Shown here piece by piece: positions 52,085 to 60,882 of a stretch of DNA of 64,000 nt. The DNA comes from Microbacterium terrisoli (GTDB lineage: Bacteria > Actinomycetota > Actinomycetes > Actinomycetales > Microbacteriaceae). How positions within the stretch are numbered: the stretch's first letter is position 1; every line of letters starts with the position of its first letter. Location: positions 2,170,001 to 2,234,000 of the forward strand of contig NZ_CP133019.1 of the NCBI RefSeq assembly GCF_030866805.1. Direction: 5' to 3'. Both the position numbers and the translations under genes were made by a program. The notes under the pieces are model-generated. The model saw nothing but the letters and a program-made list of their open reading frames with translations, did not search any database and was not told the origin of the DNA.

Positions 52085-52212
52085 TCGGGAGGTACTGCCG
52101 TCCGCCGCGGCGGGCGCGCCGGGACGCCCACCCGCTTAGGATGTTCCTGGGGAACTGCGGCGATTGACCGCGGGAATTGACCGCGGGAATGCGACGGGGA
52201 TTGGGGACACGT

Positions 52213-53883
52213 GTGAGAGGACTCGCGCAGACGCTCGTGCTGACCGGCGCGATGCGCGCGGCCGAGATGTCGGAGGCGATTGCTCAACACGGTGACGGCG
52301 CCGAGCTGACCGCGCAGCTGGTGGCTTCGCGGGCGATCACGCCGGCGCAGCTGGCCGAGGCCGTCGCGGTGCACACCGGGTACCGCTACGTCGACATGAG
52401 CGGGGCCACACTGGATCCGACGGTCGTCGCGCTGGTGTCGGGGGCGCTGTGTCGCCGCTATCAGATCATTCCGCTCGATCGACGTGGCGAGCGGCTGCTT
52501 GTGGGCATGCTCGATCCGACCGACATCATCGCGATCGACGATGTGACGAGCATCACCGACCTGCAGGTCGAGCCGGTGGTCGTGGCATCCGATGCCCTGG
52601 AGCAGGCGTTCGAACGCTACCTGCGCAGCGACGAAGAGCTCAGCGACCTGTCCGAGCAGCTGGGCGAGGCGGCCGATCAGACGGATTCGATCGCGTTCAC
52701 CGAGGCTCTGGACGGGCAGGATGCCGATGCCCCCGTCGTGCGGTTCGTCAATCTGCTGATCTCGCAGGCCATCAACGACCGTGCCAGCGACATCCACATC
52801 GAGCCCGGTGAACGGCAGCTGACGGTGCGGTACCGCATCGACGGTGTGCTGCACGAGATGCAGAAGGCCGACCGGGCGATTCAGGACGGCATCATCTCGC
52901 GGCTGAAGATCATGTCGTCGATCGACATCGCCGAGAAGCGCAAGCCGCAGGACGGACGTCTGAGCGTCTCGCACGACGGACGCACGATCGATGTGCGTGT
53001 GGCGACCCTGCCGACGGTGTGGGGCGAGAAGATCGTCATGCGCATCCTCGACACGTCGGCGCAGCTGCTGACGATGAGCGATCTGCGGTTCTCGACCGCC
53101 AACGAGGAACGGTTCACCGCGGCGATCACGCGGCCGCACGGCATGGTGCTGGTGACGGGCCCCACCGGGTCGGGCAAGTCGACGACGCTGTACACGGCGT
53201 TGCGTGCGGTGGCCGATCCGCGGGTGAACATCATCACGGTCGAAGATCCGGTGGAGTTCCGCATTCCGGGCATCAATCAGGTTCAGGTGAACCCGCGTGC
53301 GGGGCTGACATTCCAGTCGGCACTGCGGTCGATTCTGCGCAGCGACCCGGATGTCGTGCTGGTCGGCGAGATCCGCGACCAAGAGACCGCCGTCATCTCG
53401 ATCGAGGCGGCGCTGACCGGTCACCTGGTGCTCTCGACGCTGCACACGAATGATGCGCCCAGTGCGCTGACCCGTCTCACCGAGATCGGCACGGAGCCGT
53501 ATCTGGTGGCCACGGCGCTGTCGGCGGTGGTGGCGCAGCGGCTGGCGCGGCAGTTGTGCACGCGGTGTCGAGTGCCGTTGGGAGCGGATGCCGACACCCT
53601 GGCAGCAGTGGGTCTGCCCGAGCACCTGGTGGAGGGTTCGCAGGTGTATCGCGCGGTCGGATGCAACGCGTGCTCGAACACGGGCTATCGCGGCCGGATC
53701 GCGCTGCACGAGGTCATGAGCGTGTCGGATGAGATCGAACAGCGTCTGGTGGCGCATGCGACCGGCACCGAACTGCGTGAGCTGGCGCTGGCGCAGGGCA
53801 TGGTGTCGCTGCGCGACGACGGCTGGGAGAAGGCGGCGTCGGGTCTGACGACGATCGAAGAGGTGTTGCGCGTCTCGATGTGA
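52213..53883 (+). CDS. pilB: Type IV pilus / type II secretion assembly ATPase PilB
   Basis: Hexameric extension ATPase of the pilus motor. With the GTG at 52213, placed after GGGGA, it has about 556 residues. The N-terminal MshEN-like region (about 15-150) precedes FVNLLISQAINDRASDIHIE, Walker A GPTGSGKSTT (about 316-325), the Asp box and Walker B DPDVVLVGEIRD, and HLVLSTLHTNDAPS. A four-Cys zinc motif (CTRCRVPLG, CNACSNTGYRGR) closes the protein. An earlier start at 52177 is possible. It is on the opposite strand from the rest of the pilus genes and separated from them by 3.3 kb. Confidence 0.94.
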   Translation: MRGLAQTLVLTGAMRAAEMSEAIAQHGDGAELTAQLVASRAITPAQLAEAVAVHTGYRYVDMSGATLDPTVVALVSGALCRRYQIIPLDRRGERLLVGMLDPTDIIAIDDVTSITDLQVEPVVVASDALEQAFERYLRSDEELSDLSEQLGEAADQTDSIAFTEALDGQDADAPVVRFVNLLISQAINDRASDIHIEPGERQLTVRYRIDGVLHEMQKADRAIQDGIISRLKIMSSIDIAEKRKPQDGRLSVSHDGRTIDVRVATLPTVWGEKIVMRILDTSAQLLTMSDLRFSTANEERFTAAITRPHGMVLVTGPTGSGKSTTLYTALRAVADPRVNIITVEDPVEFRIPGINQVQVNPRAGLTFQSALRSILRSDPDVVLVGEIRDQETAVISIEAALTGHLVLSTLHTNDAPSALTRLTEIGTEPYLVATALSAVVAQRLARQLCTRCRVPLGADADTLAAVGLPEHLVEGSQVYRAVGCNACSNTGYRGRIALHEVMSVSDEIEQRLVAHATGTELRELALAQGMVSLRDDGWEKAASGLTTIEEVLRVSM

Positions 53884-53953
53884 GACATGGTTCGGCCGAG
53901 GCGACTCGCGCGTCTCATCGGACTCACGCCGCTCGCGCAGTCTCATCGCGCGC

Positions 53954-53969
53954 CGCGCTGCGCAGCGCG
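53954..53969. terminator. Perfect palindrome after pilB
   Basis: CGCGCTGCGCAGCGCG is a 16-base perfect palindrome 70 bases after the pilB stop and before the convergent TetR gene. It could fold as a short hairpin in either transcript. No T-run. Confidence 0.35.
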
Positions 53970-54012
53970 CTCGTCACGCGGCAGCGGTTTCCGGCGTGGG
54001 ATGGAAACCCCG

Positions 54013-54633
54013 TCACGCCGCAACGCCCGCCAGCCGCACCCCCACCTGCCGACGGATCGCCTCGACATCAACGTCCTCCGTCAGCGTCTGGATCTCAGGC
54101 ACGTCGGGCCGCGTCTCGCTGAGGCCGAACAGCAGCCGCGGCAGCTCGGGATAGACCGTGGCGCCGAGCAGCTCCCCCGCCAGCGACTGCGCAGCTGCGG
54201 CATCCAGTGTGTACGACGCCCCCACATGATCAGCCAGTCGCGCCGTGGTCGAACCGAAGAACACCTCGTGCAGCCGCGCGGCGGCGTCGGGGAACTGCAC
54301 GGCCACCTCGATGCCCAGCCGACAGGTCTGGGTCAGCGACGCCCAGCCGAGCATCTGCAGAAAGCGCGCGCAGTAGAGCGCGGCTGCGTCGACGGGGTCG
54401 TCCGCGTAGCTGGCCGGGGTCATCATCCGGTGCTGGAACAGCTCGTCGACATAGTCGAGCACGGCGAGCAGCAGCACCTCTTTCGTCGCGAAATGCGCAT
54501 AGAGCGATCGCTTCGACGTCGCCGCGCGGGCGGCCACGGCATCCATCGACGTGCGCTCGAACCCGGCCTCGAGAAAGGCCTCTTTGGCCTGCTCGAGGAT
54601 GTGATCACGCAGCACCGCCCCGCGACGCGCCAT
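54013..54633 (-). CDS. TetR family transcriptional regulator
   Basis: A 206-residue TetR repressor. The helix-turn-helix (ILEQAKEAFLEAGFERTSMD, AVAARAATSKRSLYAHFATK) occupies residues 13-54. A helical ligand domain follows. The ATG at 54633 is preceded by AAGGAGGG. It is divergent from the NmrA-like gene and an AT-rich operator-like palindrome separates them, so it likely represses both. No transporter or drug-resistance gene is nearby. Confidence 0.9.
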   Translation of the reverse strand: MARRGAVLRDHILEQAKEAFLEAGFERTSMDAVAARAATSKRSLYAHFATKEVLLLAVLDYVDELFQHRMMTPASYADDPVDAAALYCARFLQMLGWASLTQTCRLGIEVAVQFPDAAARLHEVFFGSTTARLADHVGASYTLDAAAAQSLAGELLGATVYPELPRLLFGLSETRPDVPEIQTLTEDVDVEAIRRQVGVRLAGVAA

Positions 54634-54650
54634 GGTGCCCTCCTTCATTC

Positions 54651-54677
54651 AAGTATACGGTACAGTATAGTTTACTT
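54651..54677. promoter_or_regulatory. Palindromic operator between TetR and NmrA-like genes
   Basis: AAGTATAC (54651-54658) and GTTTACTT (54670-54677) are inverted repeats matching at seven of eight positions, spaced by 11 bases. The 27-base block is AT-rich in a 70% GC neighbourhood and lies immediately upstream of both divergent start codons. Its size and place suit a TetR dimer and probably overlap both promoters. Confidence 0.65.
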
Positions 54678-54703
54678 ATCCCCCACGACAGGAGCCCATA
54701 CCC

Positions 54704-55603
54704 ATGATCGTCGTCACCGCCCCCACCGGTCACATCGGCAGCAAAGTTCTGACCGGACTGCTCGACCAGCCCGAGCCCGTGCGGGTCATCGCCCGCGATC
54801 CGCAGAAGCTGCCCCCGGCCGCGCTCGAGCGCTTCGACGTCATCACGGGATCGCACCACGATCCGTCCGTCCTCGACCGGGCGCTGACGGATGCCAACGC
54901 GCTCTTCTGGCTGATGCCCGCCGAGCGCACCGCCCCCAGCATCTATGACGCGTACGTCACCGCGAGCATCCCCGGCGCCGAGGCATCCCGCCGCCACGGA
55001 GTCCAGCGCGTGGTCATCGTCTCGGCCCTCGGTCGCGGCACCGGCATCTACGGCGGCCACATCTCCGCGTCGCTCGCGATGGAAGATCTGTTCCGCTCCA
55101 CCGGTGTGCACGTGCGCGCCCTGGCCAACCCGACGTTCATCGACAACCTGCTGCGGCAGATCCCCGCACTGCAGGCCGGCGTCCTCACCGGCAACCTGCC
55201 GGGCGACCTCGCGCTGCCCACCGTGGCGACCGCTGACATCGCGACCACCGCCGTGCGGCTGCTGCTCGATCACACCTGGACCGGTCAGGACACGATCGGC
55301 GTGATGGGCCCCGAGGACCTGTCGATGAACGACACGGCGCGCATCCTCACCGAGGTATTGGGCACTCCGATCCGCTACGAGCGCGGCGACCGCGCCGGCG
55401 ACCTGCAGGCGTTCATGGGGTACGGGTTCTCTGAGGCCGTCGCCCAGGCGCTGGTCGACATGGACGTCGCCAAAGAGCGCGGCATCGATCGGGCCATCGC
55501 GCGCACGCCCGAGAACACGACCCCGACGTCGCTGCGCCGGTTCGCCGAAGAGGTGCTGAAGCCGGCGATGGATGCCGCGTCACCGCGGCACGCTGCCGCC
55601 TGA
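54704..55603 (+). CDS. NmrA-like / atypical SDR family NAD(P)-binding protein
   Basis: A 299-residue protein with an N-terminal Rossmann glycine loop in VTAPTGHIGSKVLTGLL, and the NmrA-type lack of a catalytic YxxxK. GVQRVVIVSALGRGTG and LRQIPALQAGVLTGNLP are typical. Such proteins sense redox cofactors or act as quinone/NADPH-dependent reductases; no substrate is evident. The ATG at 54704 follows CAGGAG. Divergent from TetR. It converges 25 bases from the ATP-grasp gene. Confidence 0.88.
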   Translation: MIVVTAPTGHIGSKVLTGLLDQPEPVRVIARDPQKLPPAALERFDVITGSHHDPSVLDRALTDANALFWLMPAERTAPSIYDAYVTASIPGAEASRRHGVQRVVIVSALGRGTGIYGGHISASLAMEDLFRSTGVHVRALANPTFIDNLLRQIPALQAGVLTGNLPGDLALPTVATADIATTAVRLLLDHTWTGQDTIGVMGPEDLSMNDTARILTEVLGTPIRYERGDRAGDLQAFMGYGFSEAVAQALVDMDVAKERGIDRAIARTPENTTPTSLRRFAEEVLKPAMDAASPRHAAA

Positions 55604-55628
55604 CCTCGGCGCGATGCAGCAGCGGATC

Positions 55629-56576
55629 TCAGACAGCACCCTCACCCGAACGCGCGAGCAGAAAATCGGCGAACGGCTTGGCGACCTCCGGGCCGCCCAG
55701 CCCTTCGAGAAAGAGGAACTGCCCTTGCGGATTGACCTCCAACCAGTACGGCGGCCCACCGTCGGCCGCCGGCTTCAGGTCAGAGATCCCCATCTCGAGG
55801 CCCAGCCTGTCGTTGAGCGCGCACAGGCGACCCGCGGTGTCGGCGTCGATCTCGGCAGTGTCCACTCTCGGCCTCGGGTCGGTGCGCCAGTCCATGATGG
55901 GCGACTCGAGACGCCCGCAGATGACCGTCGAGCCCCACGCGCAGGCACGCAGATGCTGCGACCCCGGCGCGAACTCCTGATAGATGGCGGGAGAAAGGGA
56001 GAGCGCGTCATCCCCCGGCAGGTCCTCCAGCTCGAGCACACCTGCCCGTAACGGCACATCCATCGTGCTCGCGACGGGTTTGACGACCATGCGGCCGCCG
56101 ACCCGCACGCAGAACTCCCGGATGTCGTCGGGCACCTGGCTGACCAGGGTGGCGGGAACCCGCAGCCCGACGTCGACGGCCGCCCTCAGCTGCACGAGCT
56201 TGAACTCTGCGTTCCTCGTCGCGTCCGGGTCGCTGACCCAGACACCGCGGAAGCCCGACCGGAACAGACCCACCACCGAATCCCGGCTGTCGTTCGAGAC
56301 GACCTCGCGGGCATCGGCATCTTGCACCTGCTCGGGGACGCGGGCTTTGCCGACCCGACGCCACCACACCAGATCGAGATCCTCTGGCGTGATGACGCCG
56401 TCGGCAGACCGCAGCCGCGCTCTGGCCGCGTGGGCCGGATCGAAACTGATTCCGCCCTCTGCCGGCACGCAGTCGGCGTACACCAAAGACACCCGACCGC
56501 CGGCCTGCCTGATCCAGTGCGCCACCAATTCGGCGTGCAGATCACCGACCTGCGTCAGGATGCCGATGTGCGACAA
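55629..56576 (-). CDS. ATP-grasp ligase, MvdD/RimK-type (graspetide synthetase candidate)
   Basis: An ATP-grasp enzyme of about 315 residues. N-terminal IGILTQVGDLHAELVAHWIR and DLVWWRRVGK match the pre-ATP-grasp domain of MvdC/MvdD-like maturases. The ATP lobe includes RNAEFKLVQLRAAVDVGLRV, the lysine of MVVKPV and GISDLKP. The metal-binding end WLEVNPQGQFLFLEG corresponds to the ExNPxGQ(W/F) hallmark of microviridin-type ligases. The TTG at 56576 follows the precursor stop by one base; a GTG at 56621 inside the precursor's core region would give a Thr/Ala-rich 15-residue extension. It would join Ser/Thr/Lys side chains to Asp/Glu carboxylates of the adjacent peptide, inferred from family. 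Confidence 0.82.
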   Translation of the reverse strand: MSHIGILTQVGDLHAELVAHWIRQAGGRVSLVYADCVPAEGGISFDPAHAARARLRSADGVITPEDLDLVWWRRVGKARVPEQVQDADAREVVSNDSRDSVVGLFRSGFRGVWVSDPDATRNAEFKLVQLRAAVDVGLRVPATLVSQVPDDIREFCVRVGGRMVVKPVASTMDVPLRAGVLELEDLPGDDALSLSPAIYQEFAPGSQHLRACAWGSTVICGRLESPIMDWRTDPRPRVDTAEIDADTAGRLCALNDRLGLEMGISDLKPAADGGPPYWLEVNPQGQFLFLEGLGGPEVAKPFADFLLARSGEGAV

Positions 56577-56577
56577 C

Positions 56578-56877
56578 TCAGCAGCCGTTGCCCCAGTAGT
56601 CGCAGTCGTCCCAGCCGTCACCGGAGCCCGATGTCGTCACGCACCCCGGCTTGTAGGCCATGCGCGCATCGATCGGAATCCCGACCTTGGTGCGCATCGC
56701 CTCTTCCCACTCCGCCAGCCCGTCCTGACCGGCGAATTCGAACCACTCGGCCTTGAACGGCCACACGGTGGGCACCAGCGCGCCGACCTCCTTCTCTTCC
56801 GCAAGGACGTAACGGCGGCCCGCGGTGTTGTCGAGCGCCGGCAAGGCCTCCGCGCCCGCGTTTTCGTTGTTTTCCAT
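56578..56877 (-). CDS. Putative graspetide precursor peptide
   Basis: A 99-residue peptide with an ATG at 56877 after AAGGGGAA. A leader of about 75 residues, acidic with a WPFKAEWFEF stretch, is followed by a C-terminal core: KPGC, then VTTSGSGDGWDDCDYWGNGC (residues 80-99). Four hydroxyl residues (Thr81, Thr82, Ser83, Ser85) precede four aspartates (Asp87, Asp90, Asp91, Asp93), the arrangement seen in omega-ester peptides; Cys79, Cys92 and Cys99 are also present. Its stop lies one base from the TTG of the ATP-grasp ligase. The PFFxRFL leader motif of classical microviridins is absent, so this is a new group if real. Confidence 0.75.
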   Translation of the reverse strand: MENNENAGAEALPALDNTAGRRYVLAEEKEVGALVPTVWPFKAEWFEFAGQDGLAEWEEAMRTKVGIPIDARMAYKPGCVTTSGSGDGWDDCDYWGNGC

Positions 56878-56991
56878 GGTCGTTTCCCCTTCGATCCCAG
56901 TATCGAAAAGAGCCGCTGCACGAACGCAGTCCCACAGCCTGAAGGCCGCCTCCCCGAATCTGCTGTCCGATCAGCCACTCGATTACGAATG

Positions 56992-57020
56992 AGGATGGCG
57001 GAGAACCACACCGAAGTCAA
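56992..57020 (-). promoter_or_regulatory. Possible promoter and hairpin upstream of the precursor gene
   Basis: On the minus strand TTGACT (57020-57015) is followed 17 bases later by CATCCT (56997-56992), a weak -10. Just upstream lies the hairpin GGGTGC/GCACCC (57022-57037). The leader to the precursor ATG is about 115 bases. The rest of 56878-57162 holds no supported gene. Confidence 0.35.
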
Positions 57021-57162
57021 TGGGTGCACCAGCACCCGCAACGCGAAGGAGAAGAAGGATGCCGCGACTCGGCGTGTGCCTGGGGGTGCAACCACTGGAG
57101 GGTTACGCACATTACTCGCACGGGTCGCGGCATCCGGTCATTCAGGCGTGAAGCCCGGTCTC

Positions 57163-58401
57163 TCAGTGTTGGTTGGCGATGTCTCCGTACAGCGTGAAGA
57201 TCGGCAGATACAGCGAGACCACCATGCCGCCGATGACGATGCCGAGCCCGACGATCAGAATCGGCTCGATCATCGACGACAGCTGGTCGGTCGCGGTGGC
57301 GACCTCTTCTTCGTAGAAGTCCGCGATGCTGGCGAGCATCTCAGCGAGGGTTCCTGATTCTTCTCCGACGGCGACCATCTGCGGCACGATCTCGGGGAAG
57401 ACCTCGGCGCGCGACAAGGGCGCCGCGAACGACTTGCCGGACCGGACCGAGTCCTGCACGTCACGCACGGCCTGCTCGATCTTCCAGTTGTTCGACGCCT
57501 GCCCCACGATCGACAGGGCCTGGATGATGGGCACGCCCGCATCGAGCATCATCGACAGGTTGCGCGCGAACCGGGCGACGGCGATCTTGGTGGTCAGCTT
57601 GCCGAAGATCGGCAGCTTCAGCTTGAACGGGTCGACCACGCGCCGGTAGCCGTCGGTGTAGCGGTTGCGCGCCCACCACACCCACCCCACGATCACCAGC
57701 ACGATCAGCAGCGGCAAGATCCAGATCATGTTGTGCGAGATGTTCACGAGAATCTGCGTGGGTAGCGGGAGTGCCTTGCCCAATCCGGCAAACATCTTCT
57801 CGAAGATCGGCACGACGAAAGTGACCATGACCACCACGCCGATGAGCGCGATGATCAGCACGACAAGCGGGTAGGTCGTCGCCGCGCGGATCTTGCCGTG
57901 CAGTTCCGCCTCTTTGCGGTAGTTCTCCGCGATCGTGTTCAACGCCTGACCCAAGAAGCCGCCAGTCTCGCCGACGCGGATGATCGAGATCATCAGCGGC
58001 GGAAAGACCAGCCCGTGCCGGCCGAGCGCTGCCGAGAAGGACGATCCGCTCTCGACGTCGGCGGCGACCTGCGTCAGCACGGGCTTGAGCTTCTTGTCGG
58101 CGGTCTGGTCGGTGAGAATCGCGAGCGTGCGCATCAGCGGCAGGCCGGCGTTGATCAGCGCCGCCATCTGCCGCGAGAACACGGCCAGCGACTTGGCCGA
58201 GATCGTCTTGCTGAAGCTCGGCAGCGTGATCTCGCGGTGCAGCCCGGTCTTGGACAACAGCGAGACGTCGAGTGGTGTCAATCCCTGCGCACGCAGCTTG
58301 CCCGCGACGGCCGACTCGTTGGATGCCTCGACCGTCCCCTTGACGACGCTGCCGGTCGTCTGCTCCAAGGCCTTGTACGCGAACTCCTGCACGATGCTCA
58401 T
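57163..58401 (-). CDS. pilC: Type IV pilus inner-membrane platform protein PilC
   Basis: Polytopic protein that couples the PilB and PilT ATPases to pilin assembly, 412 residues. Two GspF/T2SSF domains are visible, FSRQMAALINAGLPLMRTLA then FARNLSMMLDAGVPIIQALS, with membrane helices in between (VVLIIALIGVVVMVTFVVP, IWILPLLIVLVIVGWVWWA) and a final helix (IEPILIVGLGIVIGGMVVS). The ATG at 58401 overlaps the pilT stop by four bases (ATGA). Last gene of the operon in this window. Confidence 0.94.
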   Translation of the reverse strand: MSIVQEFAYKALEQTTGSVVKGTVEASNESAVAGKLRAQGLTPLDVSLLSKTGLHREITLPSFSKTISAKSLAVFSRQMAALINAGLPLMRTLAILTDQTADKKLKPVLTQVAADVESGSSFSAALGRHGLVFPPLMISIIRVGETGGFLGQALNTIAENYRKEAELHGKIRAATTYPLVVLIIALIGVVVMVTFVVPIFEKMFAGLGKALPLPTQILVNISHNMIWILPLLIVLVIVGWVWWARNRYTDGYRRVVDPFKLKLPIFGKLTTKIAVARFARNLSMMLDAGVPIIQALSIVGQASNNWKIEQAVRDVQDSVRSGKSFAAPLSRAEVFPEIVPQMVAVGEESGTLAEMLASIADFYEEEVATATDQLSSMIEPILIVGLGIVIGGMVVSLYLPIFTLYGDIANQH

Positions 58402-59540
58402 GCGAGAGTCCCCCATTCGTCCAGCTGCTCATCGGCGTGCACCGACCACGATTCGGCGTCGAAGTCCTTGTGGCGCACGACCACTCCGTCCAGCGACTTC
58501 GGATCGTCGGCGAACGTGCGGGCGACGGCCATCGACACAAGCCCTTCCGAGACCATCCGCCGCAGGTCTTGATCAAGAGTGTGCATGCCGACGCCGACAC
58601 CTGCCTGCATGGCCGTGTAGAGCTGGGCGACCTGACCCTCGCGAATGAGGTTGGCCACCGCCGGCGTGTTGATCAGTACTTCGGTCGCGATGCAGCGGCC
58701 GTTGGACTGTGCCATCGGCAGCAGCGTCTGGCTGATGATGCCGCGCAGCGTGTCGCCCAGCTGTGCACGGATCTGGTGCTGCTGGTCGGCGGGAAAGACG
58801 TCGACGATGCGGTTTACGGCCTTTGCCGCGCCCTGAGTGTGCAGGGTCGAGAGCACCAGGTGCCCGGTCTCGGCCGCCGACAGGGCGATCGAGATCGATT
58901 CGGGGTCACGAAGCTCGCCGACGAGGATCACGTCGGGGTCTTGCCGCAGCACGCGGCGCAGCGCCTCGGTGAACGATGCGGTGTCGCTGCCGACCTCGCG
59001 CTGGTGGATCAGCGCCTTGCGGCTGGTGTGCTGAAACTCGATCGGGTCTTCGATCGTGACCACGTGCACGGGGCGGGTGCTGTTGATGATGTCGACCATC
59101 GCTGTCAGCGTCGTCGACTTTCCCGACCCGGTGGGGCCGGTCAGCAGCACGAGGCCACGTGGGTGCAGTGCGAGCTCGCGGGCGATCTGCGGAATACCGA
59201 GTTCGTCGAGTGAGAACACCCGCTCGGGAATGTAGCGCAGGGCGATCGCGATCTCACCGAGCTGGCGGAACACGTTCACTCGGAACCGGCCGATCGCCGG
59301 CTCGGCGTGGGCCAGGTCGACCTCATGCTGCTCGTGGAACTCGTCGCGCTGCTCGAGGCTCATCAGCCCGTAGGCCACGTCTTCGACCCATTCGGTCGCC
59401 AGCGGCGCCTCATAGCCCGGAACCGGCACCAGGTCACCGTCCACGCGCATGAGAGGCGGCTGCCCCGCCGTGATGTGGACGTCGGATGCCGCGCGCCGCG
59501 CGCCGACGGTAAGCAGGTGGGTGAGATCATCGGCACTCAT
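58398..59540 (-). CDS. pilT: Type IV pilus retraction ATPase PilT
   Basis: A 380-residue hexameric ATPase that depolymerises the pilus. The N-terminal PAS-like region (ASDVHITAGQPPLMRVDGDL) is followed by Walker A GPTGSGKSTT, the Asp box, Walker B and QDPDVILVGELRDPESI, and the characteristic AIRNLIREG-like ANLIREGQVAQLYTAMQ segment. Overlaps pilO by ATGA at its start and pilC at its end. Together with PilB it predicts a retractable pilus and possibly twitching or DNA uptake. Confidence 0.94.
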   Translation of the reverse strand: MSADDLTHLLTVGARRAASDVHITAGQPPLMRVDGDLVPVPGYEAPLATEWVEDVAYGLMSLEQRDEFHEQHEVDLAHAEPAIGRFRVNVFRQLGEIAIALRYIPERVFSLDELGIPQIARELALHPRGLVLLTGPTGSGKSTTLTAMVDIINSTRPVHVVTIEDPIEFQHTSRKALIHQREVGSDTASFTEALRRVLRQDPDVILVGELRDPESISIALSAAETGHLVLSTLHTQGAAKAVNRIVDVFPADQQHQIRAQLGDTLRGIISQTLLPMAQSNGRCIATEVLINTPAVANLIREGQVAQLYTAMQAGVGVGMHTLDQDLRRMVSEGLVSMAVARTFADDPKSLDGVVVRHKDFDAESWSVHADEQLDEWGTLA

Positions 59541-60229
59541 TTCGCCGCTCCTTCCTTGGTCGGCTCGGCGAACGCCAGCGCGTTGACGTCGAGTCGGATA
59601 CCGTCGGCGCTCTGCGACGCCGCGGTTGCGGTGACGACGCCGATCAGCCGCGGTCCCTTACGCAGCCCATCCAAGAAGGCGATGGCGGCCTTCGCATCTG
59701 GCACGGTCACCGAGATCGTGAACGGAACCTGCAGGCGACCGTCGGCCGATGCAGTGGCCGGTGCTGTCGATGCGGTGCCGGAGGCCGCAGCCCCGGCATC
59801 CGTGTTCGCCGAAGGCGACGGAGCCGGCGTTGGAGTTGGTGTTGGTGCGGGCGTCGGGCTGCCGGCGGGCACGGGGGCGGCCTGCTGCACGAACGCGACC
59901 GGGTCGTCGGCGTCGATCGATTCCACGGTGGCCTTGGCCGCGTCGGCGGCAACGGCGATCTGACGGAATACCTGCCAGTTCAGCGGATCAGCCGAGATCT
60001 GAGTGTGCAACTGGGCGACGCTGGCCTGTGTCTGACCGATGTTCTCTTTCGCCCTCTGCAGCTGGGTGATCTGCGCGCGGTATGCCTGGTTCGTGGCATC
60101 GACCTGTGCCGCCTGTGCGTTCGTGCTGTTCGCAGCGGTGAGTTGCGGCACGACGCCCGCGACGAAGGCGAGCACGAGCACGCCAGCGGCGACCAGACCT
60201 CCGATGAGCGAGATGATCTGCTTGTTCAT
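59537..60229 (-). CDS. pilO: Pilus alignment protein PilO-like
   Basis: A 230-residue bitopic protein with an N-terminal helix (IISLIGGLVAAGVLVLAFVA, about 5-24), a coiled coil (ALIGQ-type, LQRAKENIGQTQASVAQLHT) and a Pro/Thr/Ala linker (about 119-155) before a ferredoxin-like C-terminal domain. Together with PilN and PilM it forms the inner-membrane alignment complex. The ATG at 60229 shares one base with the pilN stop. Annotated by position and topology. Confidence 0.82.
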   Translation of the reverse strand: MNKQIISLIGGLVAAGVLVLAFVAGVVPQLTAANSTNAQAAQVDATNQAYRAQITQLQRAKENIGQTQASVAQLHTQISADPLNWQVFRQIAVAADAAKATVESIDADDPVAFVQQAAPVPAGSPTPAPTPTPTPAPSPSANTDAGAAASGTASTAPATASADGRLQVPFTISVTVPDAKAAIAFLDGLRKGPRLIGVVTATAASQSADGIRLDVNALAFAEPTKEGAAK

Positions 60230-60882
60230 CACTTCGCCTCTTTCGCGTAAGCACCGGAATAGATCGACTGGTCCCACGTGACGTCAACGGTGTAGTCGAA
60301 CCCATCGGTGCCGCTCGCGGTCTTGGTCGCACGGGCGTCAGCGTGCTGTACGCCGGGGACTGTGGCGAGCTTGCGCGAGAGGCCCGCGATGTCGACGACG
60401 TTCGGGCTCGTCAGGGTGAGCGTGCCGGTGAGCCCGACCTCGCTCGCCGGTTCGCTGCCGGCTTTCGGCGGTGCGCCGGTGGCGAGGTCGAAGCCGGTCA
60501 CCTTCACGTCCTTGGGCAAGGTGCCTTCGACGGACGTCAACAGCGGCTTCCACGCGAAATCGCCGCCCATCGCGTCGGCGCGGAACGATTGCAGCTCCTG
60601 CTCGGCGGCGAGGGAGGACGAGACATCCGACATGCTGCCGATCTGCGTCAGCAGGCTGTTCGTCTGCGCTTGCGCCGCAGACAAGCGCTGGGTTGATAAG
60701 AGGCTCCATGCGAACGCGGCGCCGATTGCGACAGCCGCGACCACGATCGCGGCGAACACGACCCAGAACCATTTGCGGGTGAGCACGGCGCGCTCGCGGC
60801 GGTCGACCTCGCTGCGCGGCAGCAAGCTGACGCGGGGGGCGCCGCCGACGGCGCCGGCGAAGGCGGGTGCTGTGCGGGCCAT
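60229..60882 (-). CDS. pilN: Pilus alignment protein PilN-like
   Basis: A 217-residue protein with the PilN-type cytosolic motif APRVSLLPRSEVDRRER (about 15-31), one transmembrane helix (WFWVVFAAIVVAAVAIGAAF, about 38-58) and a periplasmic-side alpha/beta domain. The NLLP-like motif binds PilM in other systems. ATG shares a base with the pilM stop (TGATG). Called by position and this motif. Confidence 0.85.
   Translation of the reverse strand: MARTAPAFAGAVGGAPRVSLLPRSEVDRRERAVLTRKWFWVVFAAIVVAAVAIGAAFAWSLLSTQRLSAAQAQTNSLLTQIGSMSDVSSSLAAEQELQSFRADAMGGDFAWKPLLTSVEGTLPKDVKVTGFDLATGAPPKAGSEPASEVGLTGTLTLTSPNVVDIAGLSRKLATVPGVQHADARATKTASGTDGFDYTVDVTWDQSIYSGAYAKEAK

Follow-up and report, generated by a model that had tools for sequence, protein, structure and literature searches.

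A candidate two-gene graspetide cassette in Microbacterium terrisoli with a conserved core predicted to carry three side-chain cross-links

Among graspetides, the microviridins have a TxRxPSDxDE-type core and a gene set with two ligases and an acetyltransferase, while the SAV_5884-type maturases (TIGR04187) are often accompanied by a methyltransferase. Fuscimiditide (ThfA/ThfB) is, in the available text of its description, a hairpin peptide with a 22-residue core in which an ATP-grasp ligase joins N-side Thr donors to C-side Asp acceptors through two esters (Thr7-Asp18 and Thr3-Asp22), and a methyltransferase forms an aspartimide (PMC12291112). According to the same text, its synthetase accepts Ser in place of Thr and rejects Glu in place of Asp, and changes in the loop are tolerated better than changes in the stem. 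Rosaritide (MirA/MirB, group 21), as presented in the available text, has three Ser/Thr donors ahead of its three Asp acceptors, forms interlocked rather than nested rings, requires the partner MirC and is accompanied by a peptidase-transporter; its synthetase also falls under TIGR04187 (PMC13097080). That text further describes groups 27, 28 and 35 as clusters of a synthetase and a precursor alone (Carter et al. 2026, PMC13097080).

The cassette considered here lies in a stretch of 64,000 nucleotides of the Microbacterium terrisoli genome, hereafter the window, and has the same gene content as groups 27, 28 and 35; as the available text gives no core sequences for these groups, it may be identical with one of them. 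It resembles fuscimiditide in its ATP-grasp ligase, predicted hairpin, order of donors and acceptors, exchange of Ser for Thr and retention of Asp, and differs from it in having three predicted pairs, a shorter loop of four residues and no methyltransferase beside the gene pair, a gap that also separates it from the SAV_5884-type clusters. With rosaritide, it shares three donors ahead of three acceptors. The microviridin ligases have the closest solved folds to the ligase of the window, yet the PFFARFL leader, the TxRxPSDxDE-type core, the second ligase and the acetyltransferase are all absent. Taken together, the cassette is real and probably a working one, as judged from sequence and models, and we hold with good confidence that it encodes a graspetide with three Asp cross-links; its product is most likely a small peptide with three ester bonds, belonging to a known class.

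Both genes are on the minus strand, the precursor preceding the ligase (Table 1). The initial annotation had described a 99-residue peptide and an ATP-grasp ligase one base apart, which the sequence and its open reading frames bear out, and the residues named in it (C79, T81, T82, S83, S85, D87, D90, D91, C92, D93 and C99) all stand at those positions. The precursor frame opens with ATG at 56877 and closes with TGA at 56580-56578, and the ligase frame runs from TTG at 56576 to a stop ending at 55629. A GTG upstream, at 56621, would give a longer ligase frame; the TTG fits as the start, since the TGA-N-TTG junction is common to the window and Microbacterium bovistercoris, and several close ligases begin at that point (alignment of 42, every second row). 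Differences between the precursors of these two species fall 13, 15 and 31 times on the first, second and third codon positions (95 aligned codons), which argues that the precursor is a translated gene, and the 14 homologues found at E <= 1 among 15 candidates in a single-sequence search place the frame beyond chance. Next to the cassette are NmrA-like and TetR genes on one side and, on the other, a frame that we take from its sequence to be pilC; thus, as had been claimed, no transporter, acetyltransferase or protease adjoins it. A scan of the cassette region for promoters and terminators was uninformative, returning no promoter-like site and one terminator-like site (56929-56916, minus strand) where 0.6 were expected, and the composition check found nothing unusual in the G+C of the cassette.

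Table 1. Features of the cassette and its surroundings, in window coordinates.
Feature	Position	Strand	Basis
Graspetide precursor, 99 aa	56578..56877	-	ORF, homologues, conservation; leader about 1-75, core about 76-99
Predicted core K76-C99 (KPGCVTTSGSGDGWDDCDYWGNGC) with stop codon	56578..56652	-	Conservation in 71 distinct precursors; exact leader/core cut approximate
Leader helix region, residues 51-66	56680..56727	-	W57, E58, R62, V65 and G66 invariant in 15/15; helix 51-65 in a low-confidence model
Leader motif P36-T-V-W39-P-F41-K42	56752..56772	-	PxxWx[FH][KR] in 20/20 close homologues
Single base, precursor stop to ligase start	56577..56577	-	Equal spacing in M. bovistercoris
Graspetide synthetase (MvdC/MvdD-like ATP-grasp ligase), 315 aa, TTG start	55629..56576	-	ORF, family models, structures
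3279-base stretch between pilB-like and pilC-like frames (TetR, NmrA, cassette)	53884..57162	.	Frames and congener comparison

The assignment of the ligase as a graspetide-type synthetase is well supported by sequence and modelled fold. Its best curated model is that of the SAV_5884-type maturases (TIGR04187), at 123.8 bits, ahead of TIGR04185 (MvdC, 109 bits) and TIGR04184 (MvdD, 88 bits), all below the respective cut-offs of 350, 425 and 475 bits, as is its score of 18.7 of 27 bits with the Pfam MvdD pre-ATP-grasp model PF21068. It therefore belongs neither to the SAV_5884 subfamily nor, given also the leader and core, to the microviridins, and is best placed as a graspetide-type enzyme outside the named subfamilies; what the locus does present, with each subfamily cut-off unreached, is an MvdC/MvdD-like ATP-grasp ligase adjoining a short precursor, as in graspetide cassettes. 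By sequence, it matches the solved structures of MdnB, AMdnB, PruB, MdnC, PsnB and CdnC (three more matches, at E 0.7-0.8, were taken as chance). A model built from 42 homologues (mean pLDDT 91.9) placed AMdnB, MdnC, PruB, CdnC and PsnB first in Foldseek, at E values from 7e-23 to about 1e-20. K126, K166, the DWR motif at 229-231, D266, E280 and N282, which we take to be the catalytic residues, are invariant in the 42 aligned ligases, and the same motifs are visible in the alignments to MdnB and AMdnB. The Foldseek comparison also shows that the ATP-grasp fold is common to RimK and LysX, and the core is acidic and has cysteines, so one could imagine an enzyme that attaches amino acids, or links the peptide to a different molecule, as RimK or the pheganomycin ligase do, with a core made for metal binding or disulfides. 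We regard this as improbable, because the first RimK match (1.5e-14) ranks behind the graspetide macrocyclases by fold, graspetide maturase models come first by sequence, and metal binding by the core acids would not require the tolerance of T, S or C (one A) that is seen at positions 81, 83 and 85.

Homologues of the ligase are numerous (620 at E <= 0.001 among 7996 candidates scored), and looser relatives match its profile at E <= 1e-30 in 72 of 394 genomes sampled from the class. Upstream regions were inspected at 37 and, with a wider list, 52 of 72 ligase loci in GTDB genomes, and further at two loci of the class sample (L097 and L098) and seven of congeners (L016-L022). A precursor with the core of the window was found at 12 of the 52 loci, as well as at L097 and L098, beside ligases that are 36-41% identical to that of the window, or 80% in M. 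bovistercoris; precursor homologues beside ATP-grasp genes, which the initial annotation had proposed to seek, thus exist in other genomes. The same core takes the form GGSISGSDDGWDDCDE in Terrabacter, CATISGSDSGWDDSDCF in Nostoc, CGTTSGCRSGWDDSDCF in Rhodobacter and Tabrizicola, DETISGSGDGWDDCDYMP in an actinomycete and CESISGSWDGWDDCDQYC in Intrasporangium, and a related unit, SVTGGPYGWDDCD, with Gly at 85, occurs in Blastococcus (L029). Other loci of the same ligase clade have different cores, for example in Streptomyces and Kribbella, and at some of the inspected ones, for example in Mycobacterium, no clear precursor was seen upstream of the ligase. A profile search with 20 rows (alignment A3) scored 7994 candidates, of which 57 proteins reached E <= 0.01. 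For 7 of 20 close precursors, the longest contig equals in length that of one of the 120 ligase matches listed out of the 620, so these probably share a contig with a ligase. Neither the precursor nor any of nine relatives scored above a curated cut-off in Pfam or NCBIfam, and weak family matches of precursors, the best being PF08701 at 18.0 of 22.3 bits (P0014), were put down to chance.

A tree of 46 ligases, several of them on long branches, unites 41 in one supported group (100/99), apart from five others, which include Lysobacter, an acidobacterium and two congeners. The rows labelled as having a GWDD core, 16 with Blastococcus included, span Actinomycetota, Cyanobacteriota and Pseudomonadota and need 4 changes on this tree, against a mean of 13.5 for shuffled labels, none of 500 shuffles being as low; a single origin of the core on the ligase tree is possible. 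By a definition that is our own, the GWDD-core family comprises precursors with [TS]x[ST]G[SC]xxGWDDxD whose neighbouring ligase falls in the 41-row clade, and the cassette of the window is one of its members.

Several precursors differ in their arrangement. That of Blastococcus (L029:6321-6950) is a single protein with two units of leader and core, and Gly takes the place of the third donor in the first of its cores. Two diverged precursors, P0166 and P0171, each without one acceptor Asp, have longest contigs of 7832 bases alike, probably lie on one contig and may form a multi-precursor array served by one ligase. At five loci of the same genus (L018-L022, in G270, G226, G328, G282 and G350), small frames ending in a TxTExxxExxDxDE-like run are found about 330 bases before the ligase match and, since that match starts near residue 110, are probably directly upstream of the ligase; from their sequences, these frames and ligases are probably another graspetide type in the genus.

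In the predicted core, T81, S83 and S85 would be the donors and D90, D91 and D93 the acceptors, Cys79 and Cys99 would form a pair, and Cys92 would be unpaired. T81, S83, D91, D93, C79 and C99 are invariant in an alignment of 15 precursors; T82 and D87 are not. A larger pool comprised 59 database proteins, 13 locus precursors and the precursor of the window (73 sequences, 71 distinct), lined up on T/S at 81, S/T at 83, W/M/C at 89, D/N/G at 90 and D at 91, a pattern that no row failed. Because the core itself had guided both the choice of the locus precursors and, through a profile, the search that supplied 45 later database proteins, the counts are a description of the family and no test of it. 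Among the 71, the donor positions hold T (59) or S (12) at 81, S (69) or T (2) at 83, and S (56), C (14) or A (1) at 85, while the acceptor positions hold D (68), G (2) or N (1) at 90, D throughout at 91, and D (67), R (2) or G (2) at 93, with Glu at none of the three. Ser/Thr donors thus stand ahead of acidic acceptors in a C-terminal core, as in graspetides (15 of 15 for T81, S83, D91 and D93). Exchange of Ser and Thr at the donors, the lack of Glu and the variable loop positions 86 and 87 fit the tolerance reported for the fuscimiditide synthetase in the available text (PMC12291112).

The initial annotation had counted four hydroxyl and four carboxyl partners, and all eight residues are indeed in the window's own precursor, so that a peptide with four esters, joining T81, T82, S83 and S85 with D87, D90, D91 and D93, could be drawn. 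Position 82, however, is Thr in just 26 of the 71 precursors and something else in 45 (I 38, K 2, V 2, E 2, R 1), and position 87 is Asp in just 18 and something else in 53 (S 27, G 13, N 9, R 2, Y 1, C 1); moreover, M. bovistercoris has Val and Gly at these places beside the ligase that is 80% identical. The four-ester product is accordingly very improbable. The expected TTSxS-DxxDDxD pattern is kept among homologues in T81, S83, S85, D90, D91 and D93, for the most part, and given up at T82 and D87. Since these six positions are kept and the other two vary, three donor/acceptor pairs are predicted, and the sequences make three cross-links likelier than four.

For the order of the three rings, a nested ladder of T81-D93, S83-D91 and S85-D90 is our tentative preference. 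It is suggested by P0012, in the alignment of 15, where S85 and D90 are both missing and the other residues remain, as expected of an inner pair, and a four-residue loop that varies at 86 and 87 would suit a hairpin. Other relatives run counter to this pairing: P0171 and P0172 lack D90 and keep S85, P0166 and P0167 lack D93 and keep T81, in P0178 and P0180 the last Asp is displaced by two residues towards the C terminus, and the first Blastococcus unit, which lies outside the 71, keeps D90 with Gly at 85. Such losses of an acid or donor without its presumed partner, together with the adjacency of D90 and D91, which is compatible with several orders, would also agree with three esters in interlocked or cage-like rings, as in microviridin or rosaritide, the latter being un-nested in the available text although its donors and Asp acceptors, three of each, are ordered alike (PMC13097080). 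Against the interlocked layout stand the joint loss in P0012 and the short variable loop; we consider it possible, if on the unlikely side, and its probability overlaps with that of the three-cross-link reading as a whole. The nested order thus remains a matter of inference.

The leader was initially said to lack the canonical motif. This is correct for the microviridin PFFxRFL, but a variant of a wider graspetide motif of proline and hydrophobic residues, the Phhx(1,2)h motif that the available text of one survey reports in about half of graspetide precursors (Makarova 2022, PMC8939145), appears to be present in its place, as far as sequence comparison can tell. All 20 rows of alignment A3 have P36, and the close relatives have P-[TVM]-[IVM]-W-x-[FH]-[KR] in 20 of 20, position 37 being Thr in 14. 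More distant leaders have PVVF, PAIY, PAVL or PAVM, and in most of them an L-x-x-[WY] stretch comes next. The precursor model is of low confidence (mean pLDDT 56.9) and, beyond the leader helix at 51-65, is too uncertain to use. Same-core precursors of the cyanobacterial and Rhodobacter type (L034:6709-6990, L036:6706-6990 and L032:6598-6921) open with an LLPAVM-like element and have a hydrophobic, Ala-rich stretch resembling a signal peptide, with the PAVL/PAVM element repeated later.

The cysteines of the core suggest a disulfide clamp between Cys79 and the C-terminal Cys. Of the 71 precursors, 58 have both Cys79 and a Cys after position 93, eight have neither, one (P0172) has Cys79 alone, and four combine Cys79 with an upstream Cys instead, five residues before it, where the C-terminal one is absent. 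After de-replication at 70% identity, 27 of 29 precursors agree in having both or neither, which 24 of 10,000 shuffles reach; at 50%, with seven precursors left, 1517 of 10,000 shuffles do so and the test is empty. As related sequences are not independent, this co-occurrence is a lead and no proof. At position 92, 27 precursors have C and 42 have S, so Cys92 is probably free. In the available text, removal of a Cys from ThfA is described as a means of avoiding disulfides (PMC13003496), and a disulfide together with a side-chain link is known in nature from sponge knottins (PMC13418204).

The 14 precursors with Cys at the donor position 85 comprise 13 of the Rhodobacter/Tabrizicola type and, separately, Intrasporangiaceae bacterium URHB0013 (L033). 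SGC in place of SGS can be seen at L033:6777-6953, L032:6598-6921 and L035:6587-6904, in two separate lineages, which makes these loci candidates for a natural thioester. Graspetide ligases are reported, in the available texts, to form thioesters with non-native or substituted nucleophiles (PMC12291112; PMC13097080), so a natural thioester at position 85 is possible in the Cys85 lineages.

The cassette is rare in its genus. A close ligase was found in 2 of 366 genus genomes, that of the window included, with distant ones (30-37%) in eight more; the precursor was found in 2 of 149 genus genomes, again with its own, and, in a family-wide sample of 398 genomes, in its own alone. Two weak genus matches to the precursor (G115 and G023; 33-35% identity at E near 1e-3) fall inside long frames and were taken as chance. 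In the window, the cassette stands between pilB-like and pilC-like frames. Matches to pilC were found in 12 of 59 genus genomes, the window's own excluded; pilB faces pilC as a neighbour in nine of the 12, with about 9 to 252 bases between match ends, and in the other three was not found on that side within 1.5 kb. In M. bovistercoris, none of the window cassette's neighbours was found in the 16 kb around the cassette, which is flanked by an HD-domain gene on one side and, about 1 kb off on the other, by a GmrSD_C gene, with one frame between. It is thus an accessory unit found at different sites. In the window, the type IV pilus-like genes at 57163-60277, which we take to be pilC, pilT and pilO-like, are on the minus strand and face the pilB-like gene (52177-53883) across the insert.

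Rarity raises the question of whether the cassette is a decaying or inactive remnant of a horizontally moved unit, a view to which the lack of a promoter-like site and a ligase remnant in a Propionibacterium metagenome-assembled genome would also lend themselves. Both frames, however, are intact, codon changes favour the third position, and the invariant residues of ligase and core are kept, so that we find decay hardly credible. The Propionibacterium case (L073:6995-7261) consists of just the C-terminal quarter of a ligase, 83% identical, in a 197-kb contig, and is either a remnant or a mis-assembly. Plasmid and phage records gave no precursor match at 1e-5, and no case for phage carriage arose from viral contigs, which yielded one ligase relative, 33% identical. 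On that IMG/VR contig, the precursor upstream of the ligase (L139:4770-4985) was read by eye as ending in HGDHYHACDSDEV, which resembles the precursor of Paenibacillus oenotherae (L047).

Among its neighbours, no dedicated protease or transporter could be linked to the pair. The C39 double-glycine peptidase (PF03412) had no match in the whole genome, while the control matched in 8 of 14 genomes. A comparison of 24 loci (frames of at least 90 aa within 6.5 kb, E <= 1e-12) showed that close relatives share much of their surroundings, and that across genera few neighbouring frames recur, each in at most four loci and in varying places, one of them an alcohol dehydrogenase in Rhodobacter; no third gene common to the GWDD-core family was found in it. 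The two-gene form therefore looks typical of the family rather than the result of a truncated cluster.

These elements can be arranged into a putative pathway. The ligase would bind the conserved leader through P36-x-x-W39-x-F41-K42 and the following helix, and would phosphorylate core aspartates with ATP, upon which nearby Ser/Thr hydroxyls would attack, giving three side-chain esters and a mass change of about -54 Da. In the likeliest layout, a hairpin, T81-D93 would lie outside, S83-D91 in the middle and S85-D90 inside, around the loop G86-D87-G88-W89, with a Cys79-Cys99 disulfide closing the base and Cys92 free. As no dedicated protease or transporter is linked, leader removal and release of the peptide may be left to general cell enzymes, or may not take place. 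The two genes would travel together as an accessory unit. To judge from other hairpin graspetides, the product may act as a protease inhibitor or in a similar binding role.

The system had been flagged as a minimal graspetide-like cassette and as the likeliest undescribed system in the window. The pairing of a precursor with a graspetide-type ligase, and of homologues with ligases, upholds the first part, with the four pairs and the missing motif in need of correction; as for the second, core strings such as GWDDCD were not found in the searchable text of papers, as distinct from supplements and figures, and the two-gene architecture is already known, to go by the available text (PMC13097080). 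The core is strongly conserved, and its family appears to be absent from print as far as this text reaches. A further-reaching reading, which we regard as doubtful, is that of an undescribed graspetide family extending across phyla, with a conserved three-rung ladder, a Cys79-Cys99 disulfide and, where Cys replaces the inner Ser donor, a native thioester made by the same ligase clade. If it were true, a core held constant over three phyla while leaders diverge would point to a common conserved target; and should the Cys clamp and the Cys donor prove real, graspetides would unite an ester ladder and a disulfide in one molecule, and a thioester would be native to the class. With just two genes, the cassette is a clean system in which to study a graspetide core found repeatedly in Actinomycetota, Cyanobacteriota and Pseudomonadota, and its predicted ring number and pairing are experimentally testable.
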